Source: Thiomonas delicata
Lineage (GTDB): Bacteria > Pseudomonadota > Gammaproteobacteria > Burkholderiales > Burkholderiaceae_C
Length of the DNA stretch: 64,000 nucleotides
Direction: 5' to 3'
Assembly (NCBI RefSeq): GCF_900088825.1
Contig: NZ_LT592171.1
Span: 398,009-462,008 of the forward strand
The notes under the pieces are model-generated. The model searched no databases. It was not told the origin of the DNA and saw only the letters and a program-made list of their open reading frames with translations. Below, one piece after another: positions 49,264 to 64,000 of this stretch (positions within the stretch are counted from its first letter, which is position 1; each line of letters opens with the position of its first letter). The position numbers and the translations under genes are program-made.

Positions 49264-50031
49264 TCAAGCACGTGATATCGCTTTGATCCAACCTTTCGAC
49301 CTGTAGCGCAGCTTTTGCGTCAAAGTTCGTGGTGTGGCAAATTGCAGGATCCATGCGGTGCGTTGCTGATCGGAGGTGTTCGGACCGCTGCCATGCAGAA
49401 GCCGCGGATGGTGGAGGATGGCACCACCGCAGGCGATGGGCACGTCCATCGCGGCCGATTCATCGAAGCCGGTAGCCATGACGTAGTGGGTGTCGGCCTT
49501 GCCAGGAATGATCTGGTGCTCGAAATTCTTGCCGCCATGGGTCCCCGGGATGTAACGCATGGCGCCACCCATGAGTGGCACGTCAGCCATTGGAATCCAG
49601 AAATGGACGCGGTGGGTGTTGCGGTAGGGCTCTCCCTTTTCGTAATAGGTGTCCTGGTGCCAGCGCGTGCCCGCGCCGATGCCTGCAGTCTTGCGAATGA
49701 CGTGGTCGAAAACGAATTCCATCGGCATGCCAAGGAGATTGGCGGCATAAATCTCACACAGCTGGAAGACTTCGCTTGCCATGAGGCGAGGTTCAAGCTG
49801 CGCGGTTCCGAGGATTTCGACCGACGTCGCACGATCATCGTCCCGCAGCTGAGTCCAATCGTCGGGGCCTGACGCGATTTTTTCCATCAATAACGCATCA
49901 AGAAGACGCTCAACTTCCGCGATCGCCTCCCGGCGAAAAAGACCAGGCACGGCGAGATAGCCAAGCTGCTTCCAGGCCGTTCGGTCATCGCTGGTCGGTA
50001 GAGGTAATGACGTAGGCACGGTAATCCTCAT
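49264..50031 (-). CDS. Phytanoyl-CoA dioxygenase (PhyH) family Fe(II)/2-oxoglutarate enzyme
   Basis: The product is 255 residues from the ATG at 50031. The iron site is RWHQDTYYEKG (His-x-Asp) with the distal His in ILHHPRLLHGSGPN and the 2-oxoglutarate-binding Arg in QQRTAWILQF. An N-terminal helix bundle (WKQLGYLAVPGLFRREAIAE) is typical. PhyH-like enzymes hydroxylate small molecules or natural products; no neighbour points to a substrate. It lies in the accessory region with degraded genes on both sides, so it may be a transferred orphan. Confidence 0.85.
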   Translation of the reverse strand: MRITVPTSLPLPTSDDRTAWKQLGYLAVPGLFRREAIAEVERLLDALLMEKIASGPDDWTQLRDDDRATSVEILGTAQLEPRLMASEVFQLCEIYAANLLGMPMEFVFDHVIRKTAGIGAGTRWHQDTYYEKGEPYRNTHRVHFWIPMADVPLMGGAMRYIPGTHGGKNFEHQIIPGKADTHYVMATGFDESAAMDVPIACGGAILHHPRLLHGSGPNTSDQQRTAWILQFATPRTLTQKLRYRSKGWIKAISRA

Positions 50032-50189
50032 GAGATTTCTGTTTGGGTCGGCTTTGCGTCTCGGGGTGCGAGCGTGATGCGTCGCAATAACTGGACCAAG
50101 CGGCGGCCTTTTCATGTGGGGTTTAGAAGATCTTCGTGTCTGGTTCGCTGTCTTAGCGTATCAAACTTGGTGCGGTCAGCACGGGTATT

Positions 50190-52408: not shown

Positions 52409-53098
52409 TTAGTCGAAAGCCCACGCTTCGGGCAGCGCGATGGTTTGCCTCTCGCGCCACGGCAGGGTGCTATGCAGGATGCGGCCGTCGTCCTCTGCGA
52501 TCACTCCATAGGAGATCTCGAAGTCGGCGAGCCGCCTCAATTCCTCAACGGTTGCCCGGCCAGTGGCCAGACTCGCCCAGAGCTCCCGGCTTTGCGTGGC
52601 GTCCATTGCGCGAGGTCGGATCAGCATGAAACGCCTGCCTGAGCGCAGCCAGAGTACTGGGCCTTCCGCACTGCGACTTCGGGCAACCCAACCCGTCTGA
52701 TCGCTGGCCGGCTCGCGTTCCCAGCGCTCGGCGTAATCCGCCTCGACGCCGTATTCGTCGATGGCGTCCAAGGTGGACGCGAAGGCCATGCAGCCCAGGT
52801 CGCGCCGGCCGCTGGGATGGTAGTCGAGTTGGCGCAGCCATTCGCACGTGTCCCCCTGCACCTGGGTAATGCCGGCGAAGCCCTCCTGGCGCAGCAGGCC
52901 GAGCAGTTCGTCGTGGCTGCAATCGTGCACGGATCTACGTCCCTCGCATGGCGGCCGATCGGCCGGAATGCGCAGGTCGGCGTGCCACTGCGCGGTCTGC
53001 ATCCACAGCACGAGGGTGGTGTCGTCGCGCAGACCCGGCGCGGTCAGCAGGGTGCGGCGCCACAGGCCCTGGTAGTGCGGAGGGACGGTGTACGACAT
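52409..53098 (-). CDS. Small protein of unknown function, possibly HRI1-like, last gene of the riboswitch operon
   Basis: The product is 229 residues without signal or membrane segments. The start (MSYTVPPHYQGLWRRTLLTA) and blocks TTLVLWMQTAQWHADLRIPA, FAGITQVQGDTCEWLRQLDY, RRDLGCMAFASTLDAIDEYG and DFEISYGVI suggest a beta-barrel, lipocalin-like fold. I associate this pattern with the HRI1 family, but only tentatively. Its ATG at 53098 shares bases with the stop of the metallo-hydrolase gene, so it is translationally coupled and belongs to the same operon. Confidence 0.8.
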   Translation of the reverse strand: MSYTVPPHYQGLWRRTLLTAPGLRDDTTLVLWMQTAQWHADLRIPADRPPCEGRRSVHDCSHDELLGLLRQEGFAGITQVQGDTCEWLRQLDYHPSGRRDLGCMAFASTLDAIDEYGVEADYAERWEREPASDQTGWVARSRSAEGPVLWLRSGRRFMLIRPRAMDATQSRELWASLATGRATVEELRRLADFEISYGVIAEDDGRILHSTLPWRERQTIALPEAWAFD

Positions 53099-53880
53099 CA
53101 GTCGTGGAATTCGGGGAAGTGGCGCAGGCTTTTCCAGAACGCCAGATCGTGATTGGGCCACAGCATGGCCTGCTCGCGTGCGGCCAGGGCCTTGAGTTTG
53201 CGGATGCTGGCGATGGCCTGGTCCTCGCGGTCCTGCCAGCAGATGCCGGGGGCGACTTCGTCGCGCAGGTTTTCCTCCAGATCGGCGGCGTCGCCGCAGA
53301 GGATCACGGGGGCGCCGCGTGGCAGTTCGACCCATAGCGACATATGGCCGGCGGTGTGCCCCGGGCTGGAGATGGCGCGCACGCCGGGAAGAAGATCGTA
53401 TTCGCCGCGCATGGTTTTCCAGCGGTGATCACCGGCGAAGTCGTCGGCGAAATAGGCGGGGTCCAGCCCGCTGCGCGCGGCTTGCATTTCGTCGTGCTGC
53501 ACGTGCACCTCGGCGCCGCACACCTCGCACAGGCCGCCGGCGTGGTCGAAGTGCAGATGGCCGAGGAAGACCACGTCGATGTCCGCCGGGCTCAGACCGA
53601 GGCGCGCCAGATGGCTGGGCAGGCGCTGGTCCTCGCGCATGTCGGGGGCGCCGAAGGCGAAGGTCTGCGGGTCGTAGTGGCGCGCGCGCTGCGTGGGGTC
53701 GACGATCTTGCCGTAGTCGCAGCCGACGTCGTAGAGGATGCGTCCCTGCGTGGTCTCGATGAGGTAGGCCAGGATGGGGGCTTCGATGATTTCGCCTTGC
53801 CCGCGATGGCGGGTGGAGATGGACTTGTCGTAGCGGTGCGTGGCGGTGAGCAGCGGCCACATGCGCAAAACCTGGGTCAT
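53098..53880 (-). CDS. Metallo-beta-lactamase-fold hydrolase (lactonase-like)
   Basis: The product is 260 residues. The dinuclear zinc motif is GHLHFDHAGG, with further ligands in SSPGHTAGHMSLWV, CGDAADLEENL and a late PNHD. The organisation resembles N-acyl-homoserine lactonases of the AiiA/AttM group, which open lactones. In this operon a role in opening a ring or hydrolysing an ester or amide of a catabolic intermediate is more likely than quorum quenching; that is inference from context. It overlaps the amidase gene upstream by 4 bases and the last gene downstream by 1. Confidence 0.85.
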   Translation of the reverse strand: MTQVLRMWPLLTATHRYDKSISTRHRGQGEIIEAPILAYLIETTQGRILYDVGCDYGKIVDPTQRARHYDPQTFAFGAPDMREDQRLPSHLARLGLSPADIDVVFLGHLHFDHAGGLCEVCGAEVHVQHDEMQAARSGLDPAYFADDFAGDHRWKTMRGEYDLLPGVRAISSPGHTAGHMSLWVELPRGAPVILCGDAADLEENLRDEVAPGICWQDREDQAIASIRKLKALAAREQAMLWPNHDLAFWKSLRHFPEFHD

Positions 53881-54548
53881 GGGGATTCCTGGGGCAGGGT
53901 GTCGATGGCCCCGGCGAGCTCCGCGCTGGTATGCACGCTGCCGAAGATGCCGCCTTCCACCGTCACCATGTCCAGCGCGGCCTGGTGCAAGGCGGGGAAA
54001 GCCGAGGCGCAGGCGTCGCCGGCGAGGCGGCAGCGGTAGCCGAGGTCCGTCGCGGCGCGCAACGTCGAGTGCACGCAAACCTCGGTGGTCACGCCGCACA
54101 GCACCAGTTCGTGGATTCCCTGCGCGGCGAGGATCTGCTGCAGATCGGTTTGGTGAAACGCGCTGTAACCGGGTTTGTCCACCACGGGTTCGTCGGCCCG
54201 GGGGGCGAGTTCATCGACGATGCCGTGGCCATGTTCGCCGCGCACCAGCAGCCGGCCCAGCGGGCCGGGCGTGCCGATGGGGGCGCCGGCGCGGGCGGCG
54301 CGTTGTTGCTTGGTGGACGGGCAGTCGGAAAGGTCGGCGCAGTGGCCTTCGCGGGTATGGATGACGAGCAGACCCCGGCGCCGCGCGGCGTGCAGCAGGC
54401 GCTGCGCGCCAGGGATGGCCGCGCGCAGCAGGGCAGTGTTCAGCCCGGCGTGGGCGGCGTAGCCGCGCGGGTCGAGAAAGTCGCGCTGCATGTCGATGAC
54501 CAGCAGCGCGGTGTCGCGGCCAAGCGGCATGGGCGCGAGATCGGACAT
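53877..54548 (-). CDS. Isochorismatase-like cysteine amidohydrolase, biuret hydrolase (BiuH)-like
   Basis: The product is 223 residues. The catalytic triad is Asp19 (VIDMQRDF), Lys125 (VVDKPGYSAFH) and Cys158 (GVTTEVCVHS). The stretches VIHTREGHCADLSDCPSTK and GTPGPLGRLLVRGE match the BiuH subgroup more closely than nicotinamidase or N-carbamoylsarcosine amidase. Members release ammonia from ureido or carbamoyl groups (biuret, ureidoacrylate, carbamoylsarcosine). Here the substrate could be a ureido product made from a guanidino compound. It is one base from creatininase and overlaps the metallo-hydrolase gene by 4 bases. Confidence 0.85.
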   Translation of the reverse strand: MSDLAPMPLGRDTALLVIDMQRDFLDPRGYAAHAGLNTALLRAAIPGAQRLLHAARRRGLLVIHTREGHCADLSDCPSTKQQRAARAGAPIGTPGPLGRLLVRGEHGHGIVDELAPRADEPVVDKPGYSAFHQTDLQQILAAQGIHELVLCGVTTEVCVHSTLRAATDLGYRCRLAGDACASAFPALHQAALDMVTVEGGIFGSVHTSAELAGAIDTLPQESP

Positions 54549-54549
54549 C

Positions 54550-55317
54550 TCAGTCGGCGAACTCGCCGCGGATGGCGGCGACCAGGCGTTCGGTCAGTTC
54601 CTGCGACATGGTCGCGCCCTTGGCCGCGTCGGCGCCGCGCGCGGACGACAGTACGCCCGACGGCGGCACCCATTGCGGGCGCGGCGGATAGGTGTCGTAG
54701 GGCGGGAAATGCGCGGGTCCGTCGTCCGGCAGCAGGTCCATGCGCACCAGTTCGGGGTGGTGGTGCAGCATCAGCGAGGTTTCGATGACGGCGGCGTGCT
54801 CCAGCGCGAATCCGGGGAAGCCGTCTGGGAACACGCGCGCCAGGGTCTGCTCGGTGAGGAAGTCCCAGTATTCCAGGCGCATGACCCGCAGCGGGCAGGC
54901 TGGGCCGAGTTCGCGCAGCGCCAGGTCGATGCCTTCGGTGACGAACCACTGGTTCTCGTAGTGCCCGACCACCACCACCAGCTTGCGCACGCCGTGGCGG
55001 GCCAGTTCGCGGATGACGTCGCGGGTGATCTGGATCAGGCTGGACGCATCCAGGCTGGTGGTGCCGGGGAAGTGCTGGCCGCCGCCGCATTTGGGCTGCG
55101 ACTTGTAGCCATAGCTCAGCGCGGGCGCGACGATGCCGTCGATGCGCGCGGCGACGCCGGCCGACACCGCGGTGGCGAGCAGCGCGTCGGTGCCTAGCGG
55201 CAGGTGCGGGCCGTGTTGTTCGAGCGCGCCGCAGGGCAGGAACACCACCGGGCTGTCTTCGGCGATGCGGTCGCGGTAGGCGATCCAGCTCATGCGGTCC
55301 ATCATCACGGGGTTCAT
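54550..55317 (-). CDS. crnA: Creatininase (creatinine amidohydrolase)
   Basis: The product is 255 residues. It retains the creatininase metal ligands Glu33, His35 and Asp44 (ALEQHGPHLPLGTD) and His119 and Glu121 (VVGHYENQWF), matching Glu34, His36, Asp45, His120 and Glu122 of the Pseudomonas enzyme. Trp151 (LEYWDF) and His174 (EHAAVIETSLM) are also kept. YGYKSQPKCGGG and QHFPGTTSLDA are nearly identical to authentic creatininase and are not general features of the wider family. It should hydrolyse creatinine or a related cyclic guanidine to the open guanidino acid. It is coupled with the amidase gene in a riboswitch-controlled operon. Confidence 0.88.
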   Translation of the reverse strand: MNPVMMDRMSWIAYRDRIAEDSPVVFLPCGALEQHGPHLPLGTDALLATAVSAGVAARIDGIVAPALSYGYKSQPKCGGGQHFPGTTSLDASSLIQITRDVIRELARHGVRKLVVVVGHYENQWFVTEGIDLALRELGPACPLRVMRLEYWDFLTEQTLARVFPDGFPGFALEHAAVIETSLMLHHHPELVRMDLLPDDGPAHFPPYDTYPPRPQWVPPSGVLSSARGADAAKGATMSQELTERLVAAIRGEFAD

Positions 55318-55354: not shown

Positions 55355-56110
55355 TCAGGCCATCAGCGCCCCGCCGTTGGGGCTGAGGGTCTGGCCGCAG
55401 TAATAGCTGGCGTGCGGGGAGGCGAGGAACACGGCGGTGGCGGCGATTTCCTCGGGTCGCCCCACGCGGCCCATCGGCACGTCGGCTTCCTTCGCCGCCC
55501 AGGCCGCGCTCATCTGGTCCAGCGCCAGCATGGGGGTGTCCACCGGCCCAGGCGCGATGGCGTTGATGCGCACCGTCGGCGCGAACTCGCGCGCCAGCGA
55601 GCGTGTGAGGGTGATGACCCCGGCCTTGGCCGCCGTGTAGGCGGTGAACCCGGCGCGGCCGAGGTAGCCGAGTTCCGACGCCACGTTGATGATGCAGCCG
55701 CCGCCGCGGCGCAGCATGGCGGGCAGGGCAGCCTGGCAGCACAGGAACACGGACTTGAGGTCGGTGGCCAGGACGTGATCCCATTCCGACTCGCGCATGT
55801 CCAGAAAGGGTTTTTCAAGCAGGATGCCGGCGTTGTTGACCAGGATGTCGACAACGCCGTGGCGTTGCAGGCAGGCGTCCATCATGCCGCGCACCGCGGC
55901 GCCCTGCGACACGTCGGCCTCCACCGCCCAGGCCGATCCACCCGCAGCGGCGATCAGCGCCACGGTTTCATCCGCCAATTCGGCGCGACCGAGATGGTTG
56001 ACGATGACCGTCGCGCCCGCCTCGGCCATGGCCACGGCGATGGCGCGGCCGATGCCGGTGGTGGCGCCGGTCACCAGCGCGGTTCTGCCCGAGAAATCGT
56101 CGTCGCGCAT
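55355..56110 (-). CDS. Short-chain dehydrogenase/reductase
   Basis: The product is 251 residues of classical SDR type. The NAD(P) motif is TGATTGIGRAIA near residue 14, NNAG follows, then INVASELGYLGRAGFTAYTAAKAG, which holds the catalytic Ser, Tyr and Lys, and IAPGPVDTPML. An Asn-His rather than Asp after the second strand (VIVNHLGRAE) suggests NADP preference. It may oxidise an alcohol made by the neighbouring desaturase/hydroxylase or reduce a carbonyl intermediate. It lies between the desaturase (5 bases) and creatininase (37 bases) genes. Confidence 0.9.
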   Translation of the reverse strand: MRDDDFSGRTALVTGATTGIGRAIAVAMAEAGATVIVNHLGRAELADETVALIAAAGGSAWAVEADVSQGAAVRGMMDACLQRHGVVDILVNNAGILLEKPFLDMRESEWDHVLATDLKSVFLCCQAALPAMLRRGGGCIINVASELGYLGRAGFTAYTAAKAGVITLTRSLAREFAPTVRINAIAPGPVDTPMLALDQMSAAWAAKEADVPMGRVGRPEEIAATAVFLASPHASYYCGQTLSPNGGALMA

Positions 56111-56115
56111 GCGCT

Positions 56116-57126
56116 TCAGACCGCCGTGAGGAAGGACACGCCCACCGCGCCGTAGAAATCCTGGGCCTTGTCCGCGCCGGTCGTGACCACGCCGTAGTCG
56201 TCGCTGAGCACGCGCTGCACGCGGTGGCGGTGAAAGCCGCGCAGCAGGCCGGCCATGGGCAGAACCTGGGTGCCGTCGTCCGCATACAACTCGCGGTGCA
56301 GCGTGGGAAGGCGGTACCAGGGCACCGTCGGTTTTTCGTGGTGGGCGTTGTGGTAGCTGAAGTTCAGCAGCAGCAGGTTGAGCCAGGGGTGCCCCAGCGA
56401 AACCAGATTGGAATAGGTGTTGTGCTGCTCGTAGTCGTGATCGCGCACCTTGTCGTTGGGAATGCTGCCGCCGGTGAGCACGGCGAAGGCGTCGTAGGTG
56501 TGCTGGTAGGCGTCGGCGAAACGCAGCACGGTGACGAACAACAGGTAGGCGACGAAATACAGCAGCACCGCCTTGGGCGAAACCCAAGCCAGCGCGGCGA
56601 AGAACGCCAGGCGCACGGCCAGCACGGCCAGGATGCGCCTGCGCCCCGCCGCGCGTTCCGGGGCGATGAAGGGCAGCAGCATCACGTAGGCGCGCATGAT
56701 GAATTCGACCGCCGGGATGTAGGCCCACTCCAGCGCCAGCACCAGCGCGCGCACCCACGCTGGGGCCTCGCGCAGGAAGCGCTTGTAATCGAAGGTGATG
56801 ACGTCGGCGCGGTCGATGTGGTGGCGCATGTGCTTGCGCCGCAGGTCGGCGAAGGGTGCGTAGCAGCTGCCGTTGATCCAGCTCATCACCGTGCCGCCGC
56901 GCTGGTTGGCGGCGTTGGATTTGAAGATCGCGCCATGCGCGAATTCGTGCAGGAAATAGGCGGAATAGGTCAACGCATGCGCGAGCAGCAGCACGCCCAG
57001 GGCGTTGAGCCACCACGCCTGCGCGACCAGCAGGCCCACGCCCGCGAGATAGCCCGCGGCCATGTGGCCCAGGGCAAGGATGTTGGGAACGGCGCCGTCG
57101 TCGTAGCGGAACAGGGTGCTGGCCAT
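56116..57126 (-). CDS. Membrane fatty-acid-desaturase-family di-iron oxygenase
   Basis: The product is 336 residues with several membrane segments and the three histidine boxes of integral-membrane di-iron enzymes: HEFAH (near 65), RKHMRHH (near 100) and NFSYHNAHHEKP (near 265), plus an extra DHDYEQHNTYSN. The family includes acyl desaturases and hydroxylases acting on alkanes and small ring compounds. A lipid desaturase would be out of place in this nitrogen operon, so oxidation or hydroxylation of a small guanidino compound is a reasonable hypothesis. It is the second gene of the operon, 82 bases after the binding-protein gene. Confidence 0.85.
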   Translation of the reverse strand: MASTLFRYDDGAVPNILALGHMAAGYLAGVGLLVAQAWWLNALGVLLLAHALTYSAYFLHEFAHGAIFKSNAANQRGGTVMSWINGSCYAPFADLRRKHMRHHIDRADVITFDYKRFLREAPAWVRALVLALEWAYIPAVEFIMRAYVMLLPFIAPERAAGRRRILAVLAVRLAFFAALAWVSPKAVLLYFVAYLLFVTVLRFADAYQHTYDAFAVLTGGSIPNDKVRDHDYEQHNTYSNLVSLGHPWLNLLLLNFSYHNAHHEKPTVPWYRLPTLHRELYADDGTQVLPMAGLLRGFHRHRVQRVLSDDYGVVTTGADKAQDFYGAVGVSFLTAV

Positions 57127-57208: not shown

Positions 57209-58216
57209 TTATTTGGCGAGCTCCATCACGAACTTGGCATCGAAGGTTTCGGCGATGGGGGGAACGCTGCTGATCTGCTTCTTGCCCATCAGCACCTTGC
57301 CGATCACCGGGCCGCTGCCGTAGAGCGAGGTGGTCGCGGTGGACTTGGTGAAGGTCTTCACCATGCCGGCCAGCGGAATGTTGAACACGCCCGACATCTG
57401 GTCCTTCACGTCCTTGGCCGAGATGCCCATGGCTTTGCCGATGATGGCATCGGCATCGTCCGGGTCGGACTTCATGTAGGCCAAACCTTCCAGATAGGCC
57501 TGGATGGTGGCCTTGACCTCTTTCGGATGCGCGGCGATGTAGGCCTTGTTGAACACCAGCACGTCGGTGATCAGGCCCGGGGCGTCCTTGGACGAGAACA
57601 CGACGTGGAATTTCTTGCCGCCGCCCATGGCGACGATCTGCGACAGGCTGGGTTCATAGGTCACGCCGATCGGGATGCCGCCCGAGGCCATGGCCGCGGG
57701 CACCTGCTCGGGGGTCATGCTGATGGACTGGATGTCCTTTTCGCCCATGCCGTTCTTCAACAGCGCGTAGGACAGCAGGAAGTCCGAAGGCGACAGCGGG
57801 TTGTAGCCGATCTTCTGGCCCTTGAACTGGCTGATCTTGGTGATGTCCGTCTTGGCGACGATGGCGTCGGCGCCGTTGGAGTAGTCGATCGGCATCACCA
57901 CCTGGAGATGCAAGCCCTTGGCGTCGGAGCCGATGACCTGGTCATAGGTGAGCATGCCGCCGTCGACGGCCTTGCTGGCGATGGCCGAGGGGATCAGCGC
58001 CGGATCGTTGAAGTTCTGCAGCTTGGCGTCGAGGCCGTATTTCTTGAAGAAACCCTTCGCCGCGGCGACGTAGAACGGACCGTAGCCGATCCAGACCACG
58101 GTGCCGATGTTCATGGTGGACTCGGCCTGGGCGACTTGCACGCCCGACACGGTGAGGGAGGCGAAGGCGGCAAGGCTTGCGAGGGTGCGCAAGGCGACTC
58201 TGCGGGCGAACGGCAT
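57209..58216 (-). CDS. ABC transporter solute-binding protein, NMT1/SsuA/TauA type
   Basis: The product is 335 residues with a signal peptide ending at QVAQA-ES. The mature protein opens with the NMT1-like pattern IGTVVWIGYGPFYVAAAKGFF, KKYGLDAKLQNF, then KAVDGGMLTYDQVIG and FKGQKIGYNPLSPSDFLL. This family brings in nitrate, sulfonates, riboflavin or pyrimidine precursors, and is also a frequent gene behind guanidine-I riboswitches. No permease or ATPase gene follows. It is the first gene behind the riboswitch, with the Shine-Dalgarno GGAG at 58228-58225, 8 bases before the ATG. Confidence 0.92.
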   Translation of the reverse strand: MPFARRVALRTLASLAAFASLTVSGVQVAQAESTMNIGTVVWIGYGPFYVAAAKGFFKKYGLDAKLQNFNDPALIPSAIASKAVDGGMLTYDQVIGSDAKGLHLQVVMPIDYSNGADAIVAKTDITKISQFKGQKIGYNPLSPSDFLLSYALLKNGMGEKDIQSISMTPEQVPAAMASGGIPIGVTYEPSLSQIVAMGGGKKFHVVFSSKDAPGLITDVLVFNKAYIAAHPKEVKATIQAYLEGLAYMKSDPDDADAIIGKAMGISAKDVKDQMSGVFNIPLAGMVKTFTKSTATTSLYGSGPVIGKVLMGKKQISSVPPIAETFDAKFVMELAK

Positions 58217-58269
58217 GGTTGAGGCTCCGGATGTGAGGGTTGAGAACGGGCACGGAAGAAAGCGGTGAC

Positions 58270-58372
58270 GACGCTTTTCTCCCGGGCTTTTATCCCTCCG
58301 TGGAGCCTCCAGGGGAGGCCGGGCGGCTCTCGGACCAGACGCTTCGCGAAGAAGCCGGAACCCTAGCTGCCC
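58270..58372 (-). promoter_or_regulatory. ykkC-family RNA, guanidine-I riboswitch
   Basis: On the minus strand, in order, are CUAGGGUUCCGG (58366-58355), GGUCCGAGAG (58336-58327) and GGGAUAAAAGCCCGGGAGA (58296-58278). These are the three most conserved blocks of ykkC RNAs, in correct order and spacing, with hairpins between them (GCUUC/GAAGC and GCCUCC-CCU-GGAGGC). It lies 54 bases ahead of the binding-protein ATG. GAGGCUCC at 58309-58302 is exactly complementary to the Shine-Dalgarno region GGAGCCUC at 58228-58221, giving a possible translational switch. Gene content (transporter, creatininase, amidase) favours guanidine over the ppGpp or PRPP subtypes; the ligand is not proven. Confidence 0.88.
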
Positions 58373-58620
58373 TGTCAAACGCAAAACAACAATTGGCGAT
58401 CAACCACCAATTCCGTGCAGCTCCAACTATGCAAGGAGCGTGCCTGGGGCGGCGCCACAGGCCCTGGGGTCTTGGCTCGGCCCCACGCTGGCGCGAGGGG
58501 CGCTGGGGCGGCAGCACGGTCGTGTCTTGGTGCAAAAGTCTTGGTGCAAAAGGCACCAGTTTGGGACATAGGGCACCGCACCGCGCCATGCCGGGCCGCG
58601 TGTGATTTGTCGCGCCCAGA

Positions 58621-59013
58621 TCAGTCCCGCCGCGCCACCATGTCGATCTCGATCCGCGCGCCCTTGGCCAGCCCCGACACGCCGACGCAGGTCCGCGCCG
58701 GCCGCCTCCCGGCGGGAAAGTAGCTGGCGTACACGCGGTTCATCGCGTCGTAGTCGGCGTCGAAATACAGCAGGAACACGCGCACCGACACCACATGCGC
58801 CAGCGTCAGCCCGCAGCCTTCGAGCACCGTGGCGAGATTCTTCATGACCTGGTGCGTCTGCGCCTCGATGCCCTCGGGGTAGGCCGAATCCAGCGTGGTG
58901 CCGCTGAACGGCATCTGCCCCGTGAGGAAGACCCAGCCATCGGTTTCGACGGCATGGCTGAAAGGCGCGACCGGGTCGGGCGCGCCGGGGATCATGTGAA
59001 AGACAGGTGGCAT
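58621..59013 (-). CDS. RidA family protein
   Basis: The product is 130 residues of the YjgF/YER057c/UK114 trimer family. Visible are FSHAVETDGWVFLTGQMPFSG, VMKNLATVLEGCGLTLAHVV, and RPARTCVGV with the conserved Arg that binds imine or carboxylate ligands. RidA proteins hydrolyse reactive enamines or imines, and relatives act in pyrimidine and uric-acid-type catabolism. It lies upstream of the riboswitch operon on the same strand, separated by a 250-base spacer plus the riboswitch, so it is related in theme but not in the same riboswitch transcript. Confidence 0.88.
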   Translation of the reverse strand: MPPVFHMIPGAPDPVAPFSHAVETDGWVFLTGQMPFSGTTLDSAYPEGIEAQTHQVMKNLATVLEGCGLTLAHVVSVRVFLLYFDADYDAMNRVYASYFPAGRRPARTCVGVSGLAKGARIEIDMVARRD

Positions 59014-59173
59014 GGGGAAGGTCCAGGTTCAAGGCAATGCCGGCCGGACGGCTCGGTGTCGCCGGATCATAAGGAGCCATGTTGCAGCGGCACAAGAGTC
59101 GCCCGTTGCGGTTCGGGCGATCTGCGATGAGCCTTCCAGAGGTGCGCCGCACAAGGCGTTCGGCCAGGCTGCG

Positions 59174-60427
59174 TGTTGATTCATTTCCAAAACTGGGCCA
59201 TTTGGGGACGCGTTCACGTTGAAATCTGAGCCACGTTGCCGCTCTATCGTGCTGAGTTTTTCAGCACAGGGGAGCAGGAGTGATCAACGTGAGCACATTG
59301 AGCAAGTTGCGCCGCCTCGTGCTGAGGCAGGACGTGTCGGTGCGCGAGGCCAGCCGCAGGCTGGGCATCTCGCGCAACACAGCCACCAAGTGGCTCAAAG
59401 ATGGTCAGATGACCGAGCCCAGATACCCTCAACGGGTGTCAGGTCCCAGCATCCTGGATCCGTACAAGGAGCAGTTGAGCCAGTGGCTCAAAGCCGATAG
59501 CCATCGCAGCAAACGCGATCGGCGCGGGATCAAGGCGATGTTTGAAGCGCTGCGGGCGCAGGGCTACAGCGGCAGCCGGGGGCCGGTGTACACATTTGCC
59601 CAGCGCTGGCAGCAAGAGCAAGGCAACGCGGCACGCGGCGCGGGGTTTATACCGCTGAGCTTCGAGTTGGGCGAGGCGTTCCAGTTCGACTGGAGCTGCG
59701 AGTACCTCTTCATCGGTGGGCTGCGTCGCCGCCTGGAGGTGGCACACACCAAGCTGGCGGCCAGTCGTGCCTTCTGCCTGGTGGCGTACTACAGCCAGGC
59801 GCACGAGATGCTGTTCGATGCGCACGCGCGCGCGTTCGCTCTCTTCGGTGGCGTGCCCCGGCGGGGCATCTACGACAACATGAAGACGGCGGTGGACAAG
59901 GTCGGCCAGGGCAAGCAGCGCAGCGTCAACGCGCGCTTTGAGGCCATGACCGGGCACTATCTGTTCGAGCCGGAGTTCTGCAGCCGGGCCGCCGGCTGGG
60001 AGAAGGGGGTCGTCGAGAAGAACGTTCAGGATCGGCGCAAGGACATCTGGCGCGAGGCCAGTGAACGGCGCTGGGGATCGCTTGGCGAGTTCAACGACTG
60101 GTTGCAGCAGGCCTGTGTGAAGGCCTGGGCCGAGATGAGCCACCCTGAATGGACGCAGCTCACGGTGGCCGATGTCTGGCAGGACGAACGGGTTCGCCTC
60201 ATGCCCAACCCCCGAGCGTTTGATGGCTATGTGGAGCAGCCGGTTCGGGTCTCTGCCACTTCGCTGATCCACTTCCAGCGCAACCGCTATAGCGTGCCGT
60301 GCGAATGGATCCACGCGGTGGTCAGCTTGCGGGCCTATGCCGATGGTCTGCTGGTGGTCGGGCCTGACGGGCGACAGGTGCGCCTGGCGCGCAGCTTCGA
60401 GCGGGATCAGACGCTCTACGACTGGAT
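59174..60427 (+). mobile_element. Truncated IS21-family element
   Basis: The left end is placed near TGTTGATTC at 59174, followed by AAACTGGGCCATTTGG and TTCACGTTGAAATCTGAGCC, short motifs of the type found at IS21 termini; the exact end is uncertain. The element carries most of istA but is cut at 60426-60428 by the IS3-family element. The 3' part of istA, istB and the right end are missing from the window. Confidence 0.75.
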
Positions 60428-60446
60428 GAACCGCCCCGGGTTTTGA
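59280..60446 (+). pseudogene. IstA transposase of IS21 family, C-terminally truncated
   Basis: 388 residues remain of a usual 500 or so. The N-terminal helix-turn-helix (VREASRRLGISRNTATKWLK) and the DDE catalytic core (FQFDWSCEYLFIGG with the first Asp; GGVPRRGIYDNMKTAVDK with the second; GWEKGVVEKNVQ with the Glu) are present. The protein ends at QTLYDW and then runs into six residues encoded by the left end of the inserted IS3 element. Without its C-terminus and istB the transposase is expected to be inactive. Confidence 0.9.
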
Positions 60447-60476: not shown

Positions 60477-60800
60477 ATGAACAAGACGAACAAGTTTTCC
60501 CCCGAAGTGCGCGAGCGCGCGGTACGCATGGTGCAGGAGCACCGAGGCGAGTACCCCTCGCTGTGGGCCGCAGTCGAATCCATGGCCCCCAAGATTGGCT
60601 GCGTGCCACAGACGCTGCTGGAGTGGGTCAAGCGCGAGGAAGTCGATACAGGCCAGCGCGACGGCCTGACGAGCAGCGAGCGTGAACGCCTCAAACAACT
60701 CGAGCGCGAGAACAAGGAATTGCGCCGGGCCAATGACATCCTCAAAGCGGCGAGTGCTTTTTTCGCCCAGGCGGAGCTCGACCGCCGTTTGAAGAGTTGA
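60477..60800 (+). CDS. IS3-family transposase OrfA
   Basis: The product is 107 residues: a helix-turn-helix ([20 protein letters not shown], then [18 protein letters not shown]) followed by a leucine-zipper-like coiled coil ([20 protein letters not shown]). OrfA binds the element ends. It overlaps orfB by 4 bases. A T6 run at 60757-60762 (GCTTTTTTCGCC) is a candidate -1 slippage site for making an OrfAB fusion; the orfB frame is open back to that point. Confidence 0.92.
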
Positions 60801-61702
60801 AGCGATTCATCGACCAGCACCGCCCCATGCACGGGGTCGAGCCCATCTGCAAAGTGCTGCAGATGGCCCCGTCGTGTTACTGGCGCCATGCCGCGCGTCA
60901 TCGCAACCCCGAGTTGCGCAGCGCCCGTGCTCAGCGCGACGATGCGCTGGCTGCCGACATCCAGCGTGTGTGGCACGCCAACTGGCAGGTGTATGGAGCT
61001 GACAAGGTTTGGTTGCAGATGAACCGCGAGGGCAACCGGGTGGCGCGCTGCACGGTCGAGCGGCTGATGAAACGCCTGGGGCTGCAGGGTGCGCGGCGGA
61101 GCAAGAAGGTGCGAACCACGGTCCCCGACACTTGCACGCCGTGTCCGCAGGACCACGTCAACCGGGTGTTCAAAGCCGAGCGACCCAACCAGCTCTGGGT
61201 GTCGGACTTCACCTATGTGAGCACCTGGCAGGGCTGGCTGTACGTGGCGTTCGTCATCGACGTGTTTGCCCGACGCATCGTGGGCTGGCGCGTGAGCACA
61301 TCCATGCAGACCGATTTCGTGATGGACGCGCTGGAGCAGGCTTTGTACGCGCGTCGGCCCGCTGCCCATGCCTTGGTCCACCATTCGGACAGAGGCGTGC
61401 AATACGTCAGCGTCAAGTACACCGAACGCTTGGCGCAGGCAGGCATCCAGCCCTCCGTGGGCAGCAAAGGAGACTCCTATGACAACGCCCTGGCCGAGAC
61501 CATCAACGGGCTGTATAAGGCCGAATTGATTCACCGCCGCGGACCCTGGAAAACCAGGGAAGCCGTCGAACTGGCCACCCTGCAATGGGTGCACTGGTTC
61601 AACCACACCCGACTGCTCAAACCGATTGGGGGTATCCCTCCGGCAGAAGCTGAGGCAAACTACTGGCGCCAACAAGCCAGTCAACACGCCATTCCGGCAT
61701 GA
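60797..61702 (+). CDS. IS3-family transposase OrfB (DDE integrase core)
   Basis: 301 residues are counted from a TTG, but the frame is open further upstream and is probably reached by frameshift from orfA. The DDE residues are in [20 protein letters not shown] (Asp), [11 protein letters not shown] (Asp) and [20 protein letters not shown] (Glu). The N-terminal [18 protein letters not shown] block is typical of the IS51-like group. All catalytic features are intact, so the element may still transpose. Confidence 0.94.
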
Positions 61703-62704: not shown

Positions 62705-64000
62705 TCAGACCCCGACGGCCGCGCCATCGCTGCGCGGATCTGCGGCGCCCTCGATGCGCCCGTCGGGGTGGCGCACCAGGGCGCCGGCGTGGCCCATGGT
62801 GTCGCTGAAGGCCTGGTCGAGCACCTCGACGTCGTGGCCGGCGTCCCGCAGGGCCTGCACCAGCGCGGGGTCGAAGCGGTTCTCCAGTTTCAGGTTCGTG
62901 CTGACATCGCCCCAGGTGCGGCCGAGCAGCCAGCGCGGCGCGCTGATGGCCTGCTGCAGGGGTTGGCCGTAGCGCGCATAGCGCGTGAACACGGCGGCCT
63001 GCGTTTGCGGCTGGCCTTCGCCGCCCATGGTGCCGTAGGGCATGACGCGGCCGTCGTCGAACAGGGCCAGGGCAGGGTTCAGCGTGTGGAAGGGTTTGCG
63101 CCCGGGTTCGAGGGCGTTGAGGTCGGCCGGGTCGAGCGAGAAGCTGATGCCGCGGTTCTGCCAGGTGATGCCGGTGTCGCGCAGCACGACGCCGGAGCCG
63201 AATTCCCAGTAGATGCTCTGGATGAAACTCACGGCGCGGCCTGCGCGGTCGATGGCGCCCATCCAGATGGTGTCGCCGGGTGCGGCGGGCTCGGGCCAGG
63301 GCAGGGCGGTGCGCATGTCGATGTCGGCGGCGAGCGCGTCGAGCGCGGCGTCGCCGAGGTGGCGGGCCGGGTCGCCGGGCACGCGGCGCGGGTCGGTGAC
63401 CACCTGGTTGCGCACGCGGAAGGCGCGCTTGGTGGCCTCGATGAGGCCGTGCAGGTGCGCGAAACCTTCGCCTTCGGCCACGCCAAGGCGCTCGTAGAGG
63501 CCGAGGATCATCAGCGATGCCAGCCCCTGCGTCGATGGCGGCAGGTTGTAGACGGTGGCGTCGCGCAGGCGCACGGACAAGGGCGTGACCTCCTGCGCCA
63601 TGTAGGCCGCGAGGTCGGCGGTGCGCACGGGGCTGCCGATGCGTTCGAGTTCGGCGCCGATGCGCCGTCCGAGTTCGCCGCGGTAGAAGCCATCGAGCCC
63701 ATGCGCGGCCAGGCTTTGCAGGGTTTCGGCCAGGGCCGGTTGGCGCAGGATGTGGCCGGGCGCTGGCGGTGCGCCGTGGACGAGGAAAGCGTCGGCGAAG
63801 CCAGGCGCATCCTTCAAGCCATCGAGCTTTTGCCGGGTCAGTTCGGCCTGGCTGGTGGTGACGACCACGCCGTCGCGGGCATGGCGGATGGCGTCGCGCA
63901 GCAGCCGCTCCAGGGGCAGCGCCTGGCCACCCCAGGCGCCGGCGACGTCAAGGGCCTTGGCCCAGCCGCCGACGGTGCCGGCGACGGTGAGCGCGGCCTG
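62705..64000 (-). CDS. Gamma-glutamyltransferase-family Ntn-hydrolase, oxamate amidohydrolase (HpxW)-like, 5' end outside window
   Basis: The frame is open to base 64000, so the N-terminus lies beyond the window; about 431 residues are present. The autoprocessing and nucleophile threonine is in APGDTIWMGAIDRAGRAVSF. IQSIYWEFGSGVVLRDTGIT, FSLDPADLNALEPGRKPFHT and YGTMGGEGQPQTQAAVFTRY follow, and the end EGAADPRSDGAAVGV is typical. These blocks resemble HpxW-type enzymes, which hydrolyse oxamate in allantoin catabolism, more than true gamma-glutamyltranspeptidase. The substrate is not proven. It is convergent with the truncated acetamidase gene. Confidence 0.85.
   Translation of the reverse strand, partial: QAALTVAGTVGGWAKALDVAGAWGGQALPLERLLRDAIRHARDGVVVTTSQAELTRQKLDGLKDAPGFADAFLVHGAPPAPGHILRQPALAETLQSLAAHGLDGFYRGELGRRIGAELERIGSPVRTADLAAYMAQEVTPLSVRLRDATVYNLPPSTQGLASLMILGLYERLGVAEGEGFAHLHGLIEATKRAFRVRNQVVTDPRRVPGDPARHLGDAALDALAADIDMRTALPWPEPAAPGDTIWMGAIDRAGRAVSFIQSIYWEFGSGVVLRDTGITWQNRGISFSLDPADLNALEPGRKPFHTLNPALALFDDGRVMPYGTMGGEGQPQTQAAVFTRYARYGQPLQQAISAPRWLLGRTWGDVSTNLKLENRFDPALVQALRDAGHDVEVLDQAFSDTMGHAGALVRHPDGRIEGAADPRSDGAAVGV

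Follow-up and report, generated by a model that had tools for sequence, protein, structure and literature searches.

The described systems closest to the locus presented here are the operons controlled by Guanidine-I riboswitches and the methylguanidine demethylation system of Vreelandella boliviensis. A 2025 review (PMC12186494), in the sections considered here, names carboxylase, guanidinase and exporter operons and treats the guanidine carboxylase route as a known assimilation pathway. In V. boliviensis, methylguanidine is demethylated by MgdH, a 2-oxoglutarate (2-OG) dioxygenase, together with MgdL, an N-(hydroxymethyl)guanidine lyase published in 2025. MgdL is described as a beta-barrel with the catalytic residues D49 and R51 and is reported to be narrow for N-(hydroxymethyl)guanidine (PMC12508155). 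Here we analyze a Guanidine-I riboswitch and the seven-gene operon below it in a stretch of 64,000 nucleotides from Thiomonas delicata (assembly GCF_900088825.1, contig NZ_LT592171.1, positions 398,009 to 462,008), referred to as the window. The riboswitch is an ordinary member of its class, while the operon under it is not ordinary and differs from those named in the review. It looks like machinery for removing side groups from larger guanidine compounds, for nitrogen use. We consider it probable that the operon, switched on by guanidine, frees guanidine from an N-alkylguanidine, most likely methylguanidine, and thereby feeds the carboxylase pathway. Searches of an open-licence library did not find this operon described, although individual genes of it may appear in earlier ykkC gene lists.

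The aptamer lies on the minus strand at 58277-58377. A cmscan search of the whole window matched it to RF00442 with 86.5 bits (gathering score 63, E 4.5e-14) over the full length of the model (positions 1-107 of 107). A preliminary description of this stretch had located three ykkC blocks on the minus strand, all of which are present in the claimed order; the aptamer itself thus stood, with its end at 58377 instead of 58372 and its position about 61-161 instead of 54-150 bases upstream of the first gene. Its 3' end is 60 bases from the start codon at 58216. The covariance-model check proposed in the same description placed Guanidine-I well above the cut-off, and between 58150 and 58500, at E up to 10, no second riboswitch family appeared; the two other matches were to a microRNA and a long non-coding RNA family, both far below their cut-offs. 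The helices covary as well. In 44 distinct relatives, found by a model made from 18 of them and hence biased to that structure, 94.6% of the cells are paired and 15 of 30 pairs are altered on both sides. Both values were reached in 0 of 500 shuffles, and sliding the partner columns by one to three positions lowers the paired cells to 32-59%. The ykkC subtypes have much of their core in common, so that a subtype 2 switch for ppGpp or PRPP has to be weighed. We rejected this assignment as highly improbable, because the only riboswitch match is Guanidine-I. The absence of ppGpp or PRPP matches there is weaker evidence than the gene context: the operon is tied to guanidine genes, and the aptamer has a core of 49 invariant columns (18 sequences) in common with the carboxylase-linked switches of its own genome and relatives. 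The subtype 1 reading favoured in the preliminary description is supported in this manner, and the aptamer is predicted to bind guanidine.

Seven genes on the same strand follow the aptamer, in agreement with the operon size proposed earlier. The first encodes SBP2 (57209-58216, minus strand, 335 amino acids), an NMT1/SsuA-like periplasmic binding protein that matches Pfam NMT1 and remains below the NCBIfam equivalog cut-offs. Of the transporter that had been announced for the operon, this binding protein is the part that was found; no permease or ATPase gene is present in the operon. The second gene, FAD (56116-57126, minus, 336 amino acids), and the last, HYP (52409-53098, minus, 229 amino acids), carry the proposed function.

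Neither Pfam nor NCBIfam gave a match to HYP itself at E<=0.001, its family gives just weak HRI1 matches in Pfam (6 of 20 members), and a search of its profile against solved structures returned three chance matches. The profile of 20 HYP proteins matches 7 of 369 genomes of the class. In two of the matching loci (L123 and L124) the HYP homologue follows a urea(guanidine) carboxylase gene and a 2OG-FeII dioxygenase gene, which is the published order of the MgdH/MgdL system; allophanate hydrolase is encoded further downstream in L124, after more genes, and none was seen within the L123 stretch. Window HYP is 37 and 32% identical to the L123 and L124 proteins, respectively, a comparison with proteins in the published MgdL position. 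The L124 copy carries D at 49 and R at 51, as described for the catalytic residues of MgdL in PMC12508155. The corresponding D41-x-R43 of window HYP is kept in 54 of 54 operon copies and in all 55 copies that entered our residue conservation counts, for which copies above length and identity limits were used throughout (CRN 56, IHL 60, MBL 50, HYP 55, FAD 89). The copy in L126 keeps D-x-R also. Among ten HYP copies that have no adjoining guanidine genes, three keep the pair (L122, L134, L135) and seven have lost it (L129-L133, L136, L137). The AlphaFold model of HYP (pLDDT 94.4) is mostly beta, in line with the beta-barrel fold of MgdL; its best structural match is YLR301w (3rby, E 3.5e-5), followed by lipocalin-like chains. 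HYP is a predicted MgdL-like lyase. A second HYP copy in the genome of L124 lies behind another 2OG-FeII dioxygenase gene (L125:8805-10300) and is followed by ABC transporter genes, with no carboxylase genes nearby; perhaps another N-alkylguanidine is handled there.

The oxygenase of the window operon does not belong to the 2-OG/Fe(II) dioxygenase family of MgdH. FAD scores 128.3 bits against Pfam FA_desaturase (cut-off 29.7), which places it in the membrane di-iron hydroxylase/desaturase superfamily, and its histidine boxes are kept in 89 of 89 copies. With AlkB-type membrane di-iron hydroxylases it has in common these boxes, a helical model (pLDDT 78.0) and a weak fold match to FtAlkB (E 0.15, probability 0.99). 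Two non-AlkB fold matches, to subunits of two chloroplast motor complexes, nevertheless score better (E 1.3e-4 and 2.7e-4), and by sequence FAD has no match among solved structures at E<=1. A PhyH gene at 49264-50115, considered as a local MgdH, was rejected for lack of similarity to the L124 dioxygenase. In comparison with mgdH-mgdL of V. boliviensis (PMC12508155), the window operon is alike in its Guanidine-I control, its D-x-R MgdL-like protein and its link to the carboxylase pathway. It differs in having a membrane di-iron enzyme in place of the 2-OG dioxygenase, in being a separate operon and in its additional SDR, creatininase, ureide-hydrolase and metallo-hydrolase genes.

The association between this operon and the riboswitch recurs widely. 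A hydroxylase profile detected 177 relatives in the species-genome collection. The 80 best were fetched as loci, and in 67 of these 80 Guanidine-I is located upstream, no more than 3 kb from the first hydroxylase gene. The median distance between the switch and the SBP2 match is 126.5 bases (range 45-1846, 66 loci). The fullest gene order is SBP2-FAD-SDR'-SDR-(FAD2)-EamA-CRN-IHL-MBL-HYP-permease-ATPase. Gene content was tallied in 50 of the 80 loci, namely those whose sequence continues for 9 kb or more beyond the start of the first hydroxylase gene. HYP is present in 44 of the 50; 40 have both CRN and SDR, and the other 10 have neither. In the genome G058 (L022:4039-4974) the SDR and creatininase genes are apparently fused by deletion, and 35 kb between two Guanidine-I switches of the same genome (L022 and L023) hold further biuret-hydrolase-like genes and a carbamate kinase gene. 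In a sample of 399 genomes from the order, 31 carry the hydroxylase (E<=1e-60), 51 Guanidine-I and 30 both, so that 30 of 31 genomes with the hydroxylase have the switch compared to 21 of 368 without it. HYP is encoded by 31 of the 399 genomes, 20 of them with the hydroxylase; the other 11 have no Guanidine-I match. The operon occurs in beta- and gammaproteobacteria and in Acidithiobacillus, and forms a distinct unit of the guanidine regulon that is encountered repeatedly. One of its cultivated environmental carriers is Pseudomonas nitroreducens 381H (locus L061).

A further 55 stretches behind Guanidine-I switches that are not placed before such a hydroxylase gene were read as well. UAAP or carboxylase genes are present in 43; five have just a cSBP-type binding protein, in some cases accompanied by other ABC genes, two have an SBP2 operon without the hydroxylase, two a more distant hydroxylase (41-42%) and three none of the query genes. 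In L190 and L191 the genes behind the switch encode a xylose-isomerase-like TIM-barrel protein and a hydroxylase of the same superfamily that is more distantly related. Five guanidine-type ABC operons (L143, L161, L177, L188, L127) encode a creatininase-fold protein and a type III glutamine synthetase behind the ATPase.

The genome of T. delicata has a second Guanidine-I switch (C4:1902578), which heads genes for a binding protein, permease, ATPase, UAAP1, UAAP2, urea(guanidine) carboxylase and allophanate hydrolase. The two operons are on different contigs. Guanidine-I is present in 11 of 60 genomes, that of T. delicata included, and in two genomes of the same genus (G013 and G021) the window-type operon and the carboxylase operon are arranged tail to tail, and each has a switch of its own; the same junction is still visible on the broken contigs of G020 and G003 (L025, L028). 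Upstream of the window operon, two transposase-like genes (59280-60446 and 60755-61702) are found, one of which contains an integrase core as well as an ALIL pseudoknot (RF01497). Since a stretch of 383 bases with 97.65% identity is present behind the allophanate hydrolase gene of the carboxylase operon (L003), insertion sequences may have helped to separate the two operons. G021 has a third Guanidine-I switch, which heads an oxalate/formate MFS antiporter gene (L024:9330-10826, minus; TIGR04259 410.4 bits, cut-off 335), followed by a gamma-glutamyltransferase gene. As a regular member of the regulon this antiporter was rejected, since it was not found on the switch strand in any of the 55 stretches.

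Taken as oxidative N-dealkylation, the operon would work as follows. Guanidine sensing would drive both operons, free guanidine turning on the seven window genes through the Guanidine-I switch. SBP2 would capture an N-alkylguanidine and may borrow the ABC permease and ATPase of the carboxylase operon. The di-iron enzyme, in the role of MgdH, would hydroxylate the carbon adjoining the guanidine nitrogen, and the MgdL-like HYP would split the product into guanidine and an aldehyde, which in the case of methylguanidine would be formaldehyde. The released guanidine would then be taken over by the carboxylase pathway, and the SDR, creatininase-like, biuret-hydrolase-like and metallo-hydrolase enzymes might act on related substrates or products. 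Several observations weigh against this proposal. The functions of HYP and the hydroxylase are themselves predictions from sequence, and simple demethylation leaves the roles of MBL, IHL, CRN and SDR unexplained. HYP is absent from six of the 50 hydroxylase loci with enough sequence, and the Fisher test for the association of hydroxylase and Guanidine-I (p 2.5e-30) ignores relatedness. Moreover, 13 of the 80 loci have no upstream Guanidine-I, and Rfam found none in the seven of them that were searched. Of these 13, six directly follow carboxylase or allophanate hydrolase genes in the same orientation, and one is arranged tail to tail with such genes; three adjoin ABC genes of the guanidine type, and three begin at the edge of a contig. 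In the carboxylase locus L123, too, Guanidine-I was not found with the model built in this analysis.

The four additional enzymes are where other readings enter. The third gene encodes an SDR-family dehydrogenase (55355-56110, minus, 251 amino acids; Pfam adh_short_C2) and the fourth the creatininase-family amidohydrolase CRN (54550-55317, minus, 255 amino acids), which exceeds the creatininase cut-off (TIGR04448, 360.2 bits compared to 235). CRN resembles the creatininase of Pseudomonas putida (1j2t) over its full length and keeps the metal and catalytic positions, yet one Trp of that enzyme, presumably W174, is replaced by Phe (49) or Tyr (7) in 56 of 56 copies. It is followed by IHL (53877-54548, minus, 223 amino acids), a biuret-hydrolase-like cysteine hydrolase. 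The nearest solved relatives of IHL are the biuret hydrolases 6xjm and 6azo (6xjm being nearest, E 1.6e-59), but its score against NF050097 (239.2) is below the cut-off of 370. MBL (53098-53880, minus, 260 amino acids) is an AiiA-like metallo-hydrolase with a Pfam Lactamase_B match. The columns chosen for the conservation count of MBL, and several of those of IHL, turned out to be non-catalytic and were not used.

With these enzymes, a widespread Guanidine-I regulon could encode a pathway from creatinine over methylguanidine to guanidine, an extension that is bolder than N-dealkylation and that we put forward tentatively, as unlikely. The hydroxylase would convert creatinine to creatol and the SDR enzyme creatol to creatone A, the ring of which would be opened by the creatininase-family enzyme to creatone B; the biuret-hydrolase-like enzyme would then give methylguanidine and oxalate, from which a hydroxylase and the MgdL-like lyase would release guanidine. 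Oxalate is the other product of the creatinine route to methylguanidine, and the antiporter behind Guanidine-I in one genus relative would suit it, although none was found in the 55 further stretches. The score of CRN above the creatininase cut-off, the two hydroxylases of some operons and the joint presence (40 of 50 loci) and joint absence (the other 10) of CRN and SDR argue for the extension. A route by which creatinine is converted to methylguanidine by way of creatol and creatones A and B is described, with its enzymes unclear, in PMC11970497, and this chemistry fits a hydroxylase, an SDR enzyme, a creatininase fold and a ureide hydrolase in order. The replacement of the P. putida Trp in every CRN copy and the occurrence of IHL without CRN in 6 of the 50 loci argue against it. 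Quite unlikely, in our view, is that the operon serves the synthesis or breakdown of a longer guanidino compound, e.g., guanidinobutyrate or another derived from arginine, with MBL as a lactonase and the lyase freeing guanidine from that compound. Lactonases are indeed nearest to MBL, and FAD very weakly matches the guanitoxin arginine hydroxylase GntB (NF041365, 22.4 bits compared to a cut-off of 380). However, MBL is below the lactonase cut-offs (136.3 compared to 375 for the AiiA-type NF045699), amino-acid genes are absent from the operon, and the narrow specificity of MgdL, as PMC12508155 reports it, does not fit.

The way in which guanidine may control the operon is suggested by the leader between aptamer and start codon (58217-58276, minus). 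In the leader fold, its Shine-Dalgarno sequence GGAGCC is able to base-pair with the aptamer segment GGCUCC, a predicted translational platform. The mean probability of this pairing is 0.85 for the window leader, compared to 0.49 with a shuffled aptamer; among 64 leaders it exceeds 0.5 in 44, compared to 6 of 64 shuffled-aptamer controls (means 0.65 and 0.32). Between aptamer and start codon no terminator-like site was found in the window. The sole minus-strand candidate, a hairpin with a T-rich tail at 58412-58391, is directly upstream of the aptamer, and a terminator platform was therefore rejected. Because the pairing beats the shuffled controls and no terminator-like site follows the aptamer, the leader suggests translational and not terminator control. 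With the aptamer constrained to its folded state, the Shine-Dalgarno sequence is mostly paired elsewhere in the model, so that the ON state is not explained by the fold computation. A promoter scan returned no hits.

Immediately upstream of the riboswitch, and sharing its strand, is an L-PSP/Rid family gene (58621-59016), which occupies the same place in L021. A gamma-glutamyltransferase gene at 62708-63868 covers, in its open frame, only model positions 138-518 of 518, its first part being either absent or located in a different frame.

Both PMC12186494 and PMC12508155 treat the natural origin of guanidine and of methylguanidine as an open question. In this operon, an oxygenase from another family is combined with a predicted guanidine-releasing lyase under a guanidine sensor. 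It offers seven genes to assay, including HYP, an uncharacterised protein for which a clear activity is predicted. If the extension to creatinine is true, it would constitute an enzymatic source of methylguanidine and guanidine, and would link vertebrate nitrogen waste to bacterial guanidine use.
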